Below are positions 1,321 through 21,464 of a DNA stretch of 64,000 bases, in pieces; positions within the stretch are counted from its first letter, which is position 1, and every line of letters starts with the position of its first letter. The stretch spans positions 1 to 64,000 of the forward strand of contig CALDZK010000007.1 in NCBI GenBank assembly GCA_937944145.1, written 5' to 3'. The notes beneath the pieces were generated by a model. That model was not told where the DNA came from. It did no database searches and saw nothing but the letters and a program-made list of their open reading frames with translations. The translations under genes were made by a program, and so were the position numbers. The DNA comes from an uncultured Candidatus Altimarinota bacterium. Its GTDB lineage: Bacteria; Patescibacteriota; Gracilibacteria; BD1-5; UBA6164.

Positions 1321-1779
1321 TTAGAGTCTCCCACAGCGAATAACTCCACTAGAGGGCACAACAGTAATAGCTCCTCATTGAAAAGTTGTTCCGGCAGTGT
1401 TGAGTATACCGTAGCCACTTGGGCATCTCGTACCACCTGCAGTAACACCATAAGTTACATTGATAAAATTTCTCGTACTCACACTATTATCCATCTTTGC
1501 TGTTCCAGAAAACAGTATCTTCCCAGTGGTAAACGTTGCTTTATTGGTTCAGAGGTTTATTCCGAGAGTCACTCCATTTGGAACTGTGATAGTACGACTC
1601 CCCACTATTATATCTCCAAATACTTTTAAATTCCTATTGTAAGTACAGTTTCATGGTACAACCCAGTTTCCATTAAAAGGAGGTTCACAATTGACAGCGT
1701 TTGCCTGCAACGTACCAGCACAAAACAGTAAACATATAAGAATTACTCAGTATATCTTTTTAAAAGTACCAGACATCAT
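1321..1779 (-). CDS. Small secreted protein, unknown function
   Basis: 152 aa, starting at the first of two tandem ATGs (1779; 1776 is equally possible). The N-terminus has an FKK start and a hydrophobic core ending near LQANA, a signal peptide. The mature part is rich in Thr, Val, Asn and Gly and has Cys pairs (NCEPP, RCPSGYG, IRCG) that could form disulfides. It begins 11 bases after the stop of the upstream gene and is probably co-transcribed with it. Several glycines are UGA. I do not recognise the family; the CP-x-GYG motif is shared with the upstream protein (CPAGYGYKM), so the two may be related surface components. Confidence 0.6.
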
Positions 1780-1790
1780 AGCTCCAAATA

Positions 1791-2495
1791 CTATTTAATA
1801 ATATAAAATATCGATTCTTCTGTTGCCTCAAGTTCAACTATATCTCCTCATATTTTGTTATAATCATAGTTCGAGGACGACCCTGTAAATGTTACTATAT
1901 CATCTATAGTTGTAACATCATTTACAAATACTCCTGTTCCTGTAGTGTTCCCTGTCAGAGTAATACTTGGGATAATAGTAAAACCTATTCCCTCAAAGCT
2001 CTGTAATCCTAGTGTATCGCTATAGGCATATCACTTGAAAGTAAAATCTCACTCACAATAATACACAAAAGTAGAAGAGTTATAATCAAAATCAATGAGT
2101 CAAAAGTCCTCACTATAGGCATATCCTCACATCTTGTAACCATATCCTGCTGGACATATCCCTGTGGAGCTTACTACATGGACGTTTTCCTCTGGAGTAC
2201 TCGACCAATCGAGATCAAAAAAACCATACACAGAATCATAATACAACCCCGTAAAATAGTTCCCGATAACCGTTGAGTTATTTCCCCTGTTTACATATGA
2301 AGCAGCCCCAGCCAGAGTCTCTACGATAGAGCCGTTTGATCAGGGATCATCAGCTCTGTCTACTGGCAATATCTGCGATACAACATCATCTCAAAAAACA
2401 TATCAAAACACTCCTATTCCAAATACAGCAGAAAGTATCTTGAGTTTTGTTCAAATCCTTTTTGTTATTTTAGTTTTGTTTTTTTGCGATTTCAT
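1791..2495 (-). CDS. Exported/membrane-anchored surface protein, unknown function
   Basis: 234 aa. A strongly basic N-terminus (MKSQKNKTKITKR) precedes one hydrophobic segment at about residues 17-33, a signal anchor or signal peptide. The rest is rich in Tyr, Gly, Ser and Asp with a CPAGYGYKM motif and repeated GYAYS segments. No domain recognised. It is divergent from the pilin-like gene at 2645, and the 149-base gap must hold promoters for both directions. Reading requires UGA as glycine at many sites, for example GGYAYS and FGLIDF. Confidence 0.6.
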
Positions 2496-2644
2496 CGTAG
2501 TATATTTTTCAAGAAAAAGTGTTGTCACAAATATGCCACATACCTATGCTACTTAATATATAAAAGGAAAGAGTTTTTGGTATTTTATTTGCAAAATACA
2601 ACTTTACGAATAGTTAAAATATATTACAAACTACAATCTCTCAC

Positions 2645-3424
2645 ATGAAAACAAAAACATCCCTATGATTCACTCTCGTAGAGCTCATCGTCGCATCATC
2701 TATCCTAATTATACTGATTTCTGTGGGGTTTTACTCATACTCTCAAAACCTCGAAGACACGAGAGACTCTCTAAGAAAAACTGATATAGCCAACCTAGAA
2801 TCCCAACTCAAACTCTACAAGCAGAGAAGATGAGCCTACCCACTCCCAGCTGACAGATACAACATCACTAACAGCTGAGTGATCGTGGCACTGCAGTGAA
2901 GACTCACCGAACAAGTCCCTCTGACAACAGCCTCCTATATCCCAGTTGATCCACTCATAGAAGAGCCATATATCTATAGTATACTCAACAACAGACAAGA
3001 GTTCGAGGTGTCTCTCTCGCTAGAAAATGCTGGAAATCCCCTTGCTGTTCTTGTCTGAGACTACAGAAGTGTATCTCGTAATTTTCTCCCAAGTATCTCT
3101 CTAGCTATAGACAATGGGAGTGATACAGAAATAAACTGAGGAATTTGAGCAGGTGCTACAAATAGACTTGCTTTTATATTTGACAATGGAGGACTCAATC
3201 TCCCCTATAGTTTTGACGAACCCTTTGATCCTATAGTAGGAGCTACAACTTTTGAAGATGCTATAGATGACCCTACTATACAGTACTGGCAAAACTCCGA
3301 CTACAGAAACTGTACAGAGATATTTCAAGCTGGAAAATCCATATCAAACGGTATCGGAGCTATCCAGTATCAAATACTCAACTCTAGTGGTGCTCTGGTA
3401 AATACTGATTGTGATTTCTTGTAG
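2645..3424 (+). CDS. Type IV pilin-like protein (minor pilin/pseudopilin)
   Basis: 259 aa. The N-terminus MKTKTSLGFTLVELIVASS is a class III prepilin signal: a short basic leader, Gly (encoded by UGA) immediately before the mature Phe, Glu at mature position 5, and a long hydrophobic helix. PilD (50416-51393) would cleave after that UGA-encoded glycine. The C-terminal domain is larger than that of a typical major pilin and contains two Cys (DYRNC, TDCDFL) compatible with a disulfide loop. It precedes the pilB-pilC cluster, so a minor pilin or tip pilin is the likely role. Confidence 0.85.
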
Positions 3425-3535: not shown

Positions 3536-4297
3536 ATGTCAGAATTTAAAATAAAACTCAAAACTCCTACTATAGAGACAAAAGTAGAAGAAACAAAGGA
3601 AGTCACTGAGATAACTCCCTCTGCTGTAGAAGAAACTCCAAAACAGGATATCCCTACCCCAAAAATCTGAGTCCAAGAACCAGAACAACCAGAGAAATCT
3701 TCAGAAAAAGAATCTCTTGTAAAACGTCCAAAAATACAACTCGGGAGTATAAAAGCAGACAAACAAAAGACAGAAACTCCAAAAACTGAAGAACAAAAAG
3801 AAAAGACAGAAACTCCAAAAACAACTACTCCCTCAGAGGAAGTCGAAACTCCCGATCTAGAAGAGTCTACTCCTGAGTCACGACTCCAAGACAAAAAACA
3901 AATGTTTTGAAACTATCAGTCTTCTTTTGAAAAAAGAGGAAAAAAGTTTATCGATAGAATCAAAAACATACATTGAGCTCCAGAGACGCGCCTTGGTTTT
4001 TTGATGCTTTTGGTTGGTTTGACAGTTTTTATAATAGGAGGGCTCATGATACTCATACCCGAAAAACATAGTTTTTCTATCTACAAAGCAAGCCTACAGG
4101 AAATATATGCTATACACGTAAAATGAGGATCTCCTATTCCAAGTCCCAAGGTAGTACAAAGCAATGAGAAACTCCCTAATCCAGAACCTACTCCAAGCCC
4201 CATAGAACAAGGAAACATATCTCAAGAAACAAATATAGGAGAAGATGAGAAAAGAGAAAAAGTAAAAGAATACATCTTACAGAATCTCAAAAAATAA
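3536..4297 (+). CDS. Single-pass membrane protein with Pro/Glu/Thr-rich N-terminal region
   Basis: 253 aa. Residues 1 to about 125 are highly charged and rich in Pro, Glu, Lys and Thr with short internal repeats (KTETPKT twice). One hydrophobic helix lies at about residues 160-180 (FLMLLVGLTVFIIGGLMILI), followed by a roughly 70-residue C-terminal tail. The topology recalls PilN/FimV-like or TonB-like linkers, but there is no recognisable domain. It lies between a pilin-like gene and pilB and is followed by a strong terminator at 4305-4347. A role in pilus assembly is inference from position only. Confidence 0.6.
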
Positions 4298-5743: not shown

Positions 5744-7648
5744 ATGTTTGGATTTAAAAAGAAAAAAATCGATTTTTGAAAAATAAAAACTTTTGACGAT
5801 GCCCTCAAAGCTATCAAGGTCTTTATCTATCTCAAAGAATGGGATAAAGCTGAAAAAGCTATAGCAGAAATCAGAAACATAGAAGATACAGCTTTTGCTG
5901 ATCTCGAAGTAAAACTCAAAGATAACTACTCTGAGTCACAAAAACAAAGAAAAAAATACGAAAAAAACAAAGGCCTCATAAGAACAATGGAGGGAAAATT
6001 TGAAATGGAAAAACTCAAATACGAAAGAGAAATCGAAAAAGAGAGATTTCGTATACGTTTTAATAAAATAAAAAAAGAGATCCATAAACTCGCAGCCACA
6101 GGAAAAAACAACGATGCTCTGAACCTCCTCACTCACTTCCTAGAAGACAATAGAGACAAGTCTGCTGTAGTCACGTTTTATGATAAAGAAAAGAAAAAGA
6201 TCCTCAAAAGTATAGAAGCAAAAAAAGCAAAAGACAAAAAAAAGCAAAAAGACACAGCAGAGATAGAAGCTCTGAAACTCATAGGGAAAACTATAAAAAA
6301 CCAACAGCAACAACAAGAAGAAAAAAAACAAGAAGAGGAAAAACAAGGAAAATCACTCTTTCCTTTCGCAGGAATCAGAAAGAAACTCAATTTCTACAAG
6401 AGTCTCAAAGCACGTCTCGAGAGTAAGAAACTCTTGGACGAAGTAAGTATTCTCATAGAAGAAGAATCTAACGCAAAAAAAGAAATAGCAGAAAAAAAAC
6501 TCGAAAATATACACAAAGGACTCGTTAGAGAACTCTATCAACCAGATATGGTGGGTTTTGATATATATGGAAAGATACTCTGACATGACAAGATTTCTGG
6601 TGATACTTTTGGTTTTATAGACTCAAAAGAAAAATACAACTTCTTTATCGGAGACGCTACTGGTCATGGAGTAAGAGCTGGTCTTATCGTCTCTATATTG
6701 AGTAAAAACTTTCAAGAACACTCTGCCAAATACGATCTGCAGAATATCGCTCTGAAAACAAACAACAACCTCAAAGAAAACCTACAAAGTAGGAATTTTG
6801 CAACAGGAGTATTTTTTGAGATAAATAAAGAATATAATGATATAGTAAACTTTGTTGGTTTCGGTCATGAACCGATGTTTGTATATAGAGCCAAAACAAA
6901 GAAAGTAGAAAAAGTCATCCCTGGAGGGCTCGCTGGTGGTATACGTGTCATAAAAAAACTCGAAGATATACAAGTAAAACATATAGAACTCGCAGACGAC
7001 GATATCATACTTACTTTTAGTGACGGGGTTGTAGAAGCAAAAAACGAAGCAGGAGAGTTCTATGGACTTGATAGACTCGAAAAGACATTTAGATCAATAT
7101 CAAAGAGTCATACAAATCCCCAGGACATCTACACTTCTCTGATAGAAGACCTAAAATTCTTTAAATCAGGTACGAGTTTCCTAGATGATACTACTATTGT
7201 TCTCCTGAAGAGAAATCAATCAAAAGACGTAGTGACCCACGAATCAGTAGAACTCAAAGAGATAACGGCAAAAGAATGACTCAATCGTACCCAAGCAAAA
7301 AGACTCGCATGAAAAAATAAAAAAGATCTCGAAGAAGAACTCGAAAAAATTCGTAAAGAAAAAGAAACAGATAATATCATAAAAATACTCGAATGATACT
7401 ATCTCACTGGGGAAATAATAAAACTCAAACAAGAGGCAACAAGATATATAAAAGAGTGATATATCCATAAAAAGATAAATTTTTATCTGAAAAAAGCCAT
7501 AGCAAAAGAGAATGCTTACAGGGTAAGTCAAAAAAACACAAAAATGCAAAACAAATACAATGTCCTCATGGAACTCTATAAGAAAAACGATTACAGGACA
7601 GTGATACACGAGATAAATGATATAATTGCTAAAGACTGAAATATATAA
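5744..7648 (+). CDS. SpoIIE-type PP2C phosphatase with long coiled-coil arms, in the pilus operon
   Basis: 634 aa. Residues 1 to about 260 are charged and coiled-coil rich (a Lys/Glu/Gln-rich stretch near 185-205). A SpoIIE/PP2C-like Ser/Thr phosphatase domain spans about 265-500, with metal-binding acidic motifs GDTFGF, FIGDATGHG, FSDGVVEA and a DDTTIVLL end. A second charged helical tail fills 510-634. No membrane segment is visible. The gene sits 6 bases after pilB and 2 bases before pilC, so it must be co-expressed with the pilus motor. I infer a regulator of pilus activity by dephosphorylation; no partner kinase or anti-sigma protein is in the window. Confidence 0.85.
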
Positions 7649-9122: not shown

Positions 9123-9836
9123 ATGAGAAATACAAAAACTGGTTTTACACTCGTAGAACTCATAGTGGTAATCACTATACTCGCTATCCTTGGTACAATA
9201 GCTTTTATATCTCTTGGTTCTTATACTGCAGACGCTAGAAATGCAAAAAGACTTGATGGGATATCTAAACTCGCTACTGCTATAGATAACGATCAACTGA
9301 GTGGTAAATCACTCCTCGCATACGTTGCAGACAGTGCAAACGCTGTAACTGGTGTAAGTGTTGCTGGTACTGCTGGTACTGCTACTGACTACCAAGCTGG
9401 TAATATTAACCCTACAGCTCTCAATGTAAAAGCTGAACAATTCGAAGATCCATCTCAAACAGATGAACTCTATAGAATCGGGGTTTCTACAAGAGCTGGT
9501 GGTGTGTATGAACTCGCTGCAAAACTCGAAGAAGGATCTACGAGTAGAGCTTCTGTAAAAGGAAATTACTCTCCTAGAGGTACGACTTCTGCTACTGCTA
9601 CTGCAGGAACAAACTCTGTTGTTCTTACAAATGTAACTGATATTAACTTCTTCAAAGTTGGTGATACTACTGATAACGGTGTAGTTACTGCTATCTCTCC
9701 AGATGGTCTTACTGTAACTGTTGATGGTACTCCTGGTGCATCTATAGCTCTCTCAGCTGCTGAATCTACTGGTCTAGTAGGTACTGATGGAGGTGTTGCT
9801 GTAGTAAACGATGATATTACAAACTTTCCTTACTAA
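9123..9836 (+). CDS. Major type IV pilin
   Basis: 237 aa. It has a short prepilin leader MRNTKTG, then mature FTLVELIVVITILAILGTIA with Glu5, the canonical pilin helix processed by PilD. The globular domain is rich in Thr, Ala, Gly and Val. All 25 glycines are GGN codons and no in-frame UGA occurs, unlike neighbouring genes, suggesting strong expression. It is a single-gene unit between two strong terminators. The sequence does not show which pilin class beyond type IVa-like. Confidence 0.92.
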   Translation: MRNTKTGFTLVELIVVITILAILGTIAFISLGSYTADARNAKRLDGISKLATAIDNDQLSGKSLLAYVADSANAVTGVSVAGTAGTATDYQAGNINPTALNVKAEQFEDPSQTDELYRIGVSTRAGGVYELAAKLEEGSTSRASVKGNYSPRGTTSATATAGTNSVVLTNVTDINFFKVGDTTDNGVVTAISPDGLTVTVDGTPGASIALSAAESTGLVGTDGGVAVVNDDITNFPY

Positions 9837-9915: not shown

Positions 9916-10998
9916 TTAGTCTGTTGCGTCCTGAACTAGTTTTGGGTTATTTGCGTATTTGAGTCATTCTTCTTTTGATATCGATCACATCTGTATTAGA
10001 GATATGACATCTTCTTCGAGTAACTGCATACCATCTCTTTTTCCCATTTGCATTACTGTTTGGATTTGAGCGAGATCATTCTCACGTATGAGGTTCCCAA
10101 CAGCTGAGTTGTTTACGAGGATTTCTTTTGCCATACGTACCCCTGATCCATCCTGCATCACGAGAAGTCTCTGAGAAAATATCGCTACCATCGCGTCAGC
10201 TAGTTGTAGACGGACTTGTTCTCTTTCTGATTCTTGAAACGTATCGATAATACGAGATATCGTTTGTCCAGCACTACGAGTATGTAGTGTTGAAAATACG
10301 AGATGTCATGTCTCAGCCAGAGTGAGAGCCATCTCTATCTCTTCTCTGTTTCTCATCTCTCAAAACAAAATTACCTGGGGGTTTTGTCTCATAGCCCCTA
10401 TAAGAGCTGTAGTATAATCAGGGATATCTTTCCCTACTTCTTTTTGATCTACTATAGATTTCTTATGTGGATGGAGATACTCAACAGGGTCTTCTATCGT
10501 GATTATGTGTCTTCTATAGTTTTCGTTTATGTAGTCTACCATCGATGCAAGAGTAGTAGTTTTTCATGATCCAGTAGGTCCAGTAACGAGTATGAGTCAC
10601 TGTCAGAGCTTTGTAACATTTTTATAGATATCTGGAAGTCAGAGTTTTTCTATATTTGGGATTTCTGATGTCAGGAGCCTGAGAACTGTCATATAGTTCC
10701 CCATTTGAAAAGAAATATTTCCTCTAAATCTCCTGCCATTGAAAGAAAAAGAAAAATCTAAGTTTTTCTCTTTTTTGAGCTTTTCATGCTCTCTCTCATT
10801 CATAAGAGACTCTGCAAACTCAAAAGTGTCTTTCCAAACAAGTGGTTGTATATCCTCGTTGATACTCGCGATCTCCCCTCCTATCTTGATAGCTGGGAAA
10901 GTCCCGGTTGTGATATACATATCACTCCCGTTATGATCTATCATTACCTGGAGTAACATATCTCTCAGGAGATGGTCTTCGCGTATAACATTTTCCAT
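9916..10998 (-). CDS. pilT: Type IV pilus retraction ATPase PilT
   Basis: 360 aa ATPase that depolymerises the pilus and gives twitching motility. Motifs: [17 protein letters not shown] (N-terminal PAS-like domain), Walker A GPTGSGKTTT, Asp box [13 protein letters not shown], Walker B PQVILFGEMRNRE (Gly is UGA), His box [14 protein letters not shown] (Gly is UGA), and the AIRNLIRE-type region seen here as VGNLIREND. Length is normal. It is convergent with the major pilin and lies 68 bases downstream of the MPNTG surface-protein gene. Confidence 0.95.
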
Positions 10999-19574: not shown

Positions 19575-21464
19575 GTGTCAGAACAACAATCTTCTCAACA
19601 ACAAGAACTCTTTTTACTTGTAAAAAAGAGGTATACTGGTGATGTCCATAGTTTTGAATCAGAAAAATGAATACCAAAACCTACCAGAAAAGACACAAAA
19701 AAAACACCAAACACCTCAGACAAGAAACAAGACAAGCAAATACTCGAAGCAGAAAAAGAATACAAATCAGCACTCGCATATATAAAAGACGCTATATCTC
19801 CTGCTTTTTTAAAAGTTCATGCAGATAAACTCAGAGTAAACAACACCTACGTAAAGACATTTTTTGTGTATTCTTATCCAAACTTTCTTGAGGGAAACTG
19901 GCTCTCTCCTATCATTAACTGGGATGTCAAATTCGATATGAGTCTCTATATATACCCAATAGAGTCAGCTTTTATCCAAAAATACCTCCGTAAAAGACTC
20001 ACACAACTCCACTCAGAGAGATCTATAAACGCAGAAAAGTGACTCATAAACGATCCAGCGCTCGAGGCACAAATCCAAGATGTCGAAGAGCTCAGAGCAA
20101 AACTCACCAGAGGACAGGAAAAGTATTTTCACTTTGGACTCTATATAACGATATACTCTGACACTGAGGAATGACTCACAAAAATAGGAAAAGATATAGA
20201 AACCATACTCGCAGGGAGAAATGTCCTCCAAAAACAAAGTTACCTCCGTGCAGAACAGGGTTTTGTTACTACGGGACCGTTTGCAAAGGATGATCTCGGA
20301 GTTTATAGAAATATCTCGACCTGAGGACTCTCAACAACATTTCCCTTTTCATCATCAACACTCAGCCATGATGATGGGATACTCTATGGGGTCAATACCC
20401 ATAATAACTCCCTTATACTCTTTGATAGATTCAAGAGTGAAAATGCAAATATGGTTGTATTTGCGAAATCTGGTTCAGGGAAATCATTTGCAGTAAAACT
20501 CGAAATTCTCAGGACTCTGATGCTCGGAACTGATGTCATCGTCATAGATCCAGAAAACGAATACAAACCACTGGTTGATACAGTAGGAGGGAGTTATCTC
20601 GATGTCAGCCTCAATTCAAATGAAAGAATCAATCCGTTTGACCTTCCTCTATGAATGAAAGATCACGAGGAAAAACCTGGTGATCTCCTAAGATCTGCTA
20701 TCATAGATCTCCTTGGACTCATGAATCTGATGCTTGGAAAACTCTCAAGTGAAGATGAATCTATCATGGAAAAAGCCCTCATAACAACCTATAGCCTCAA
20801 GGGAATAACTCTCGAAGATGATGACGCAGTAGGAAAAGAAATTCCCATAATGAAAGACCTCCAAGACGTGCTAGAAACTATGGACTGATGAGAATCTCTC
20901 GTTAGGAGACTTGAGAAATATACGACCGGGATATTTTCTGGTATTTTTTCCCAGAGAACCAACGTAGACCTCAAAGAGTGACTCCAAGTATTTTCTGTCA
21001 GGGATCTCGATGATATACTCAGACCAACAACTATGTATGTTATCCTCAATCATATCTGGAACAAAGTACGTAGTTCGAACAAAAAAAGACTCCTCGTCAT
21101 AGACGAAGCGTGGAATGTCATGCAGCACGAAGATTCTGCAAAATTTCTATTTGGGCTCGTAAAAAGAGCCAGAAAGTATAACCTCGGAATCACAACTATC
21201 ACTCAAGACGTCGAAGACTTTGCAACAAGTTCGTATGGAAAACCTATCATCACTAACTCTTCTATCCAGGTACTCTTGAAACAATCAAGTGCTTCTATCG
21301 ATGCACTCCAGGATATATTCAAACTCACCGATCAAGAAAAATACATCCTCCTCAACGCAGCTGTATGACAATGACTCTTCTTTGCTGGTGCAGAACATGT
21401 CGGAATACAGATAGTCGCGAGTTTCTACGAAGAGCAAATAGTCAGCACAGACCCAAACAAATAG
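19575..21464 (+). CDS. VirB4/TraC-like conjugation-type ATPase
   Basis: 629 aa, GTG start (an in-frame TAA at 19557-19559 precludes anything longer; the first ATG would remove over 100 residues). The N-terminal region is VirB4/CagE-like; the P-loop reads FAKSGSGKSFAVKLE, followed by VIDPENEYKPL, a Walker B LLVIDEAWNVM and ITQDVEDFATSSYGKPI. UGA is read as Gly at many sites. VirB4-type ATPases energise type IV secretion. In CPR genomes they occur with few other T4SS genes, and none is seen here. A terminator follows at 21476. Confidence 0.9.

Follow-up and report, generated by a model that had tools for sequence, protein, structure and literature searches.

A SpoIIE/RsbU-type phosphatase encoded between pilB and pilC accompanies one PilB subfamily in Gracilibacteria

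SpoIIE of Bacillus subtilis has an N-terminal membrane region, and SiaA, a biofilm phosphatase of Pseudomonas aeruginosa, is membrane-bound and acts on SiaC. RsbU of the Bacillus general stress response consists of a small N-terminal domain with a helical linker and ends with its SpoIIE-type PPM domain (residues 121-335); it works together with a STAS protein and the kinase RsbW (PMC12143880). RsbU is activated when its coiled linker is rigidified and the phosphatase domains dimerize, a mechanism proposed to be general for such enzymes (PMC12143880). A connection of this type of signaling to pili is described for Nostoc punctiforme, in which an RsbU-like phosphatase, a STAS protein and a kinase (HmpU, HmpV and HmpW, respectively) are required for pilus-driven motile filaments to develop normally and HmpV, dephosphorylated by HmpU, is an output on which that development depends (Riley 2018 in PMC8256260, PMC6495340). 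These sources do not describe a phosphatase gene that belongs to the operon of a pilus motor or that accompanies only one PilB subfamily. Control of the extension motor PilB is known to occur via PilZ, FimX, c-di-GMP and chemotaxis-type systems; PilZ, FimX and c-di-GMP control the motor, yet none is a phosphatase, and the word "phosphatase" is absent from a 2024 review of PilB regulators (PMC11656802).

We analyzed a 64,000-nucleotide stretch of DNA (the window) from an uncultured Candidatus Altimarinota bacterium of the class Gracilibacteria (contig CALDZK010000007.1). Read with code 25 (TGA=Gly), the plus-strand ORF at 5744-7648 encodes a 634-aa SpoIIE/RsbU-type protein, here named SPOp, and conserved glycine columns of this protein, such as the invariant G280 and G572, are encoded by TGA, which supports the use of this code. 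Gaps of 6 bp and 2 bp separate the gene from pilB upstream and pilC downstream, respectively, an arrangement first seen in a sequence-only reading and borne out by the ORF and by the T2SSE and T2SSF Pfam matches of the two neighbors. Similarly to RsbU, SPOp combines a SpoIIE-type PPM domain with a predicted N-terminal helical linker, and homologs of the RsbU partners (STAS and RsbW) are present in the same genome. By contrast to RsbU, SPOp carries long arms on both sides of the PPM domain, is encoded in a pilus operon and is not known to have a partner of the RsbT type. Among solved structures, those of SpoIIE (3t91, 5mqh, 5ucg) are nearest in both sequence and fold; unlike SpoIIE with its membrane region, SPOp appears to be soluble and pilus-linked. 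The features of the locus are listed in Table 1.

Table 1. Coordinates of the features of the pilus locus and of the SPOm locus in the window.
Feature	Coordinates	Strand	Basis or remark
Type IV pilin-like protein, start of locus	2645..3424	+	Weak N_methyl and T2SSG Pfam matches
Single-pass membrane protein (judged by eye) with long Thr/Glu/Lys-rich tail	3536..4297	+	No family match in Pfam or NCBIfam
PilB, extension ATPase of the SPOp-linked subfamily, 407 aa	4514..5737	+	T2SSE, E 4e-119
SPOp, PPM phosphatase of the SpoIIE/RsbU type, flanked by N- and C-terminal helical arms	5744..7648	+	PF07228, E 1.9e-33; PDB fold matches
SPOp N-terminal arm and linker (about residues 1-259), the least conserved region, with long charged helices	5744..6520	+	AlphaFold2
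SPOp PPM catalytic domain (about residues 260-492)	6521..7219	+	Pfam, alignment, AlphaFold2
SPOp C-terminal arm, the most conserved region (about residues 493-634)	7220..7645	+	AlphaFold2, alignment, profile
PilC, pilus platform protein, 405 aa	7651..8868	+	T2SSF, E 2e-45
Pilin-like protein	9123..9836	+	N_methyl
PilT-like ATPase	9916..10998	-	T2SSE match; close to the locus in most relatives
SPOm, second SpoIIE-family phosphatase, N-terminal membrane segment	18233..19432	+	PF07228, E 7e-35
VirB4/TraG-like ATPase, conserved partner of SPOm	19575..21464	+	NF045971, E 2e-105, above cut-off

The pilin-like gene that opens the locus has a counterpart at many relatives' loci, and homologs of the single-pass membrane protein precede pilB in several f1 genomes. 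This membrane protein is a possible docking partner or substrate of SPOp. Divergent from the pilin gene, two small secreted-looking proteins of no known family are encoded on the minus strand (window 1321-2528) and are found in the same place in several relatives.

SpoIIE (PF07228) was the sole Pfam domain detected in SPOp (residues 295-490, 116 bits compared to a cut-off of 25). Its metal-ligand positions correspond to D287, D304, D427 and D481/D482, with the Asp invariant in 27 orthologs and likewise across all 66 SpoIIE domains compared. A single-chain AlphaFold2 model built with 22 homologs (mean pLDDT 80) revealed a confident PPM fold (about residues 260-492) between long helices. The N-terminal arm was modeled as helices 17-57, 62-118, 122-135, 140-200 and 209-254 with low confidence at the end of the arm; helix 209-254 is the predicted linker before the PPM domain, although residues 226-259 fall below pLDDT 50. 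The C-terminal arm was helical and confident (residues 502-629). Thus, the catalytic residues and the long helical arms noticed by the sequence-only reading were both recovered. By Foldseek search against the PDB, the matches covered the PPM part of SPOp and the nearest structures were SpoIIE, the RsbU domain of Rv1364c, RsbX and SiaA. SPOp differs from SiaA, despite this fold match, in that no NCBIfam model matched it, and its arms matched no named family in Pfam or NCBIfam. Based on this domain and active site, SPOp is predicted to be a working RsbU/SpoIIE-type serine phosphatase, as part of an overall explanation (set out below) to which we give not quite an even chance.

Mean column identity within SPOp was about 0.47 for the N-terminal arm (residues 1-200), 0.61 for the PPM domain and about 0.67 for the C-terminal arm (residues 521-634); the latter is thus under the strongest constraint within the protein, which suggests that it is a probable binding or docking surface. 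The length of SPOp increases to 897-1184 aa in some genomes (L083, L104, L059, L048), with the extra stretch apparently N-terminal. A scaffold, with arms that organize PilB and PilC and a PPM activity that is minor or vestigial, would account for an arm being the most conserved part of SPOp and for a total length that varies up to 1184 aa. This role is improbable, however, as the metal-ligand Asp residues are all invariant over a divergent family and a scaffold would be expected to have lost some of them. The intact Asp ligands also ruled out a degenerate phosphatase, and the presence of orthologs in relatives ruled out a gene specific to this genome.

PilB of the SPOp-linked subfamily was detected in 46 of the 60 genomes of the order (each at 447 bits or above) and was absent from the other 14, in which the best match reached at most 352 bits. 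In every readable case among the 46 genomes, SPOp was encoded directly after this PilB; pilB and SPOp are split between contig ends in G028, and the stretch fetched for G057 holds only the start of SPOp. The gene order proposed from the window is thus kept in relatives. The 14 genomes devoid of the subfamily PilB had no SPOp; the other SpoIIE protein was the only one encoded there, or SpoIIE proteins were missing altogether. In a tree of 84 PilB proteins, the 35 that are SPOp-linked formed one clade (support 100/98). As the next gene after every examined pilB of that subfamily, SPOp is not placed there by chance. At 20 other pilB genes of the order, including one in the same genome (L307), pilC was directly next with no phosphatase between, in agreement with the view that pilus operons usually lack such a gene at this position. 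Another reading holds that SPOp is a co-transcribed neighbor, placed for expression with pili and with a function and substrate unrelated to the pilus machine. We find this unlikely, since among the 60 genomes SPOp is never apart from this pilB and is missing along with it in 14, and since other pilus operons do without SPOp; operon position by itself is, admittedly, no proof of interaction.

Orthologs of SPOp were found in all f1 genomes sampled. A profile of the C-terminal arm (A2) matched 35 of 242 genomes of the class, namely 28 of 28 in the family of the window and seven in the sister family, with no match in other orders. When the same profile was compared to 380 genomes across the phylum, only the genome of the window was matched, apart from two hits outside the order (E 6e-4, with internal stops) that were read as chance. 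As a small correction to the sequence-only reading, almost every named record is an assembly of 'Candidatus Gracilibacteria' or of Patescibacteria. The perfect pairing of SPOp with PilB is partly shared ancestry. There is strong support for a dedicated link of SPOp to a single pilus system. Its constant position between the genes for motor and platform of that pilus suggests that a serine-phosphorylation switch probably either controls the pilus or receives information on pilus state.

In the same genome, no match to the Ser/Thr kinase family Pkinase (PF00069) was detected, and control by a eukaryotic-type kinase of this family was thus ruled out. One HATPase_c_2 kinase of the RsbW/SpoIIAB type was identified (E 3.9e-14) with intact N, G1 and G2 boxes, together with one stand-alone RsbV-like STAS protein (L153:6400-6750). 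In alignments of STAS and kinase proteins, taken from loci L112 onward only, the STAS motif NSKS was invariant in 20 sequences and the phospho-position serine was kept; we take this serine to be the SpoIIAA/RsbV phospho-position. A second STAS match (C1:39515) proved to be the tail of a SulP transporter and hence not RsbV. By PF04542 search, one SigA-like and one ECF-like sigma factor were detected (types judged by eye), and no target sigma factor of the SigB/SigF type was seen.

On contig C10 of the same genome (region L113:10590-17019), the kinase gene adjoins an HU gene and is located at the end of a cluster of minor-pilin, pilC2 and pilO/pilN-like genes. Adjacency of the kinase and HU genes is common to both families, and the link of the kinase to minor pilins occurs in many f1 genomes. 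The stand-alone STAS gene is located beside a tsaE-like gene, away from pilus genes, in most f1 genomes viewed (L154-L164, L171, L172); an exception is G010 (L156), in which the STAS gene is followed by a pilC2-pilO-pilN cluster.

No STAS or kinase homolog was seen at the fetched SPOp loci and no second STAS/kinase pair dedicated to SPOp was found; G038, for instance, has one STAS and one kinase only, despite its SPOp. Both proteins are also present in genomes lacking SPOp and thus neither needs it. In two f3 genomes without any SpoIIE protein, the kinase was missing as well and the STAS matches were weak.

SPOm, the second SpoIIE-family phosphatase of the window, displays a weak match to the SiaA profile and is paired with the VirB4-like ATPase in both families, including in genomes without SPOp. 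A STAS gene follows the ATPase gene in two SPOm loci (L092, L096). In a tree of SpoIIE domains, the SPOm clade joins class-wide SpoIIE proteins of about 380 aa, most of which are encoded after a STAS gene; in several genomes from other orders of the class the order is direct, STAS then SpoIIE. SPOm is thus a likely STAS phosphatase of the same signaling set and a better candidate than SPOp for the original one, as judged from its grouping with STAS-linked enzymes. In some genomes of the sister family, a compact gene cluster encodes an RsbW-like kinase, a STAS protein and an additional, third SpoIIE protein of about 780-840 aa (L168:3567-7048; L003; L063; L066). Because kinase and STAS are present with intact motifs and STAS-linked SpoIIE clusters occur in relatives, a partner-switching set exists in this lineage. 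In standard-code relatives from other orders of the class (L283-L302), a second conserved SpoIIE type of about 525 aa is encoded after a gene of about 500 aa, often near lepA.

SPOp itself formed a separate clade on a long branch, outside the STAS-linked group. A pilus protein could thus be its substrate, and direct control is a real rival: SPOp would switch extension on or off by dephosphorylating PilB, PilC or the membrane protein encoded at 3536-4297 (on its Thr-rich tail), the opposing kinase being either the RsbW-like one or an unrecognized one and the STAS protein being left to SPOm alone. The long-branched clade, the strict bond to one PilB clade, the arrival of SPOp without an extra STAS or kinase and the position of the RsbW-like gene next to a minor-pilin operon in many f1 genomes are all consistent with this possibility. 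It is nevertheless judged less likely than the STAS route, as the pilus proteins here have no known phosphosite, the genome has no Pkinase, and the SpoIIE/RsbU-type enzymes known to us target STAS or similar small proteins (PMC12143880, PMC8256260). The presence of an RsbW/STAS pair in a genome devoid of Pkinase makes a path through STAS likelier, with the pilus either as an input or as a recipient of STAS output. The interpretation given in the sequence-only reading was upheld in part, strongly for a dedicated link to one pilus system and not for phospho-control of pilus extension.

The explanation that we favor, at a little less than even probability, is that SPOp is a pilus-docked RsbU-type phosphatase that feeds the single partner switch of the cell via STAS. 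With no extra STAS or kinase accompanying it, SPOp may act on the same STAS protein as SPOm; such a role as second input carries the same near-even weight. By this mechanism, the arms of SPOp, chiefly the conserved C-terminal arm, would dock on the PilB-PilC motor and platform, and pilus state or contact would alter the arms and coiled linker and so change phosphatase activity. By analogy to RsbU, we propose that the arms act as sensors of the PilB-PilC complex and that they set the linker. The single RsbW-like kinase would phosphorylate the serine of the single RsbV-like STAS protein and SPOp would remove the phosphate, such that the pilus provides a second input into one partner switch beside membrane-bound SPOm. 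The switch may act on a sigma factor, either ECF or primary, or else unphosphorylated STAS may act on the pilus, in the manner of HmpV in Nostoc. Of these elements, the catalytic site, the operon position, the co-occurrence with one PilB clade and the presence of a kinase and a STAS protein are seen in the sequences, whereas docking, activation by the pilus, the STAS substrate and the output are proposed. The separation of SPOp from the STAS-linked SpoIIE clade, the persistence of STAS and kinase in genomes without SPOp, their absence from the SPOp loci and the low confidence of the linker count against this explanation. Tentatively, and at somewhat short of an even chance, SPOp would be a structural part of the PilB-PilC complex that couples pilus mechanics directly to serine-phosphate signaling, a form of pilus control or sensing not described before.

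The enzyme family and partner switching are already known. What appears to be new is that a phosphatase of the SpoIIE type, flanked by conserved arms at either end, is a fixed member of a pilus motor operon: open-licence papers on Gracilibacteria/Absconditabacteria pili and on Patescibacteria secretion did not mention this phosphatase, and those searched for SpoIIE with type IV pili, SpoIIE in Patescibacteria or partner switching in CPR bacteria held nothing relevant.

Gracilibacteria are poorly studied, and contact between related epibionts and other cells is believed to be mediated by pili. A phosphatase gained or lost together with one PilB subfamily would add serine phosphorylation wired into the pilus machine. 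If SPOp reads the pilus, these bacteria would offer a testable route from contact to cell state that requires few proteins, namely SPOp, SPOm, one STAS protein and one kinase.
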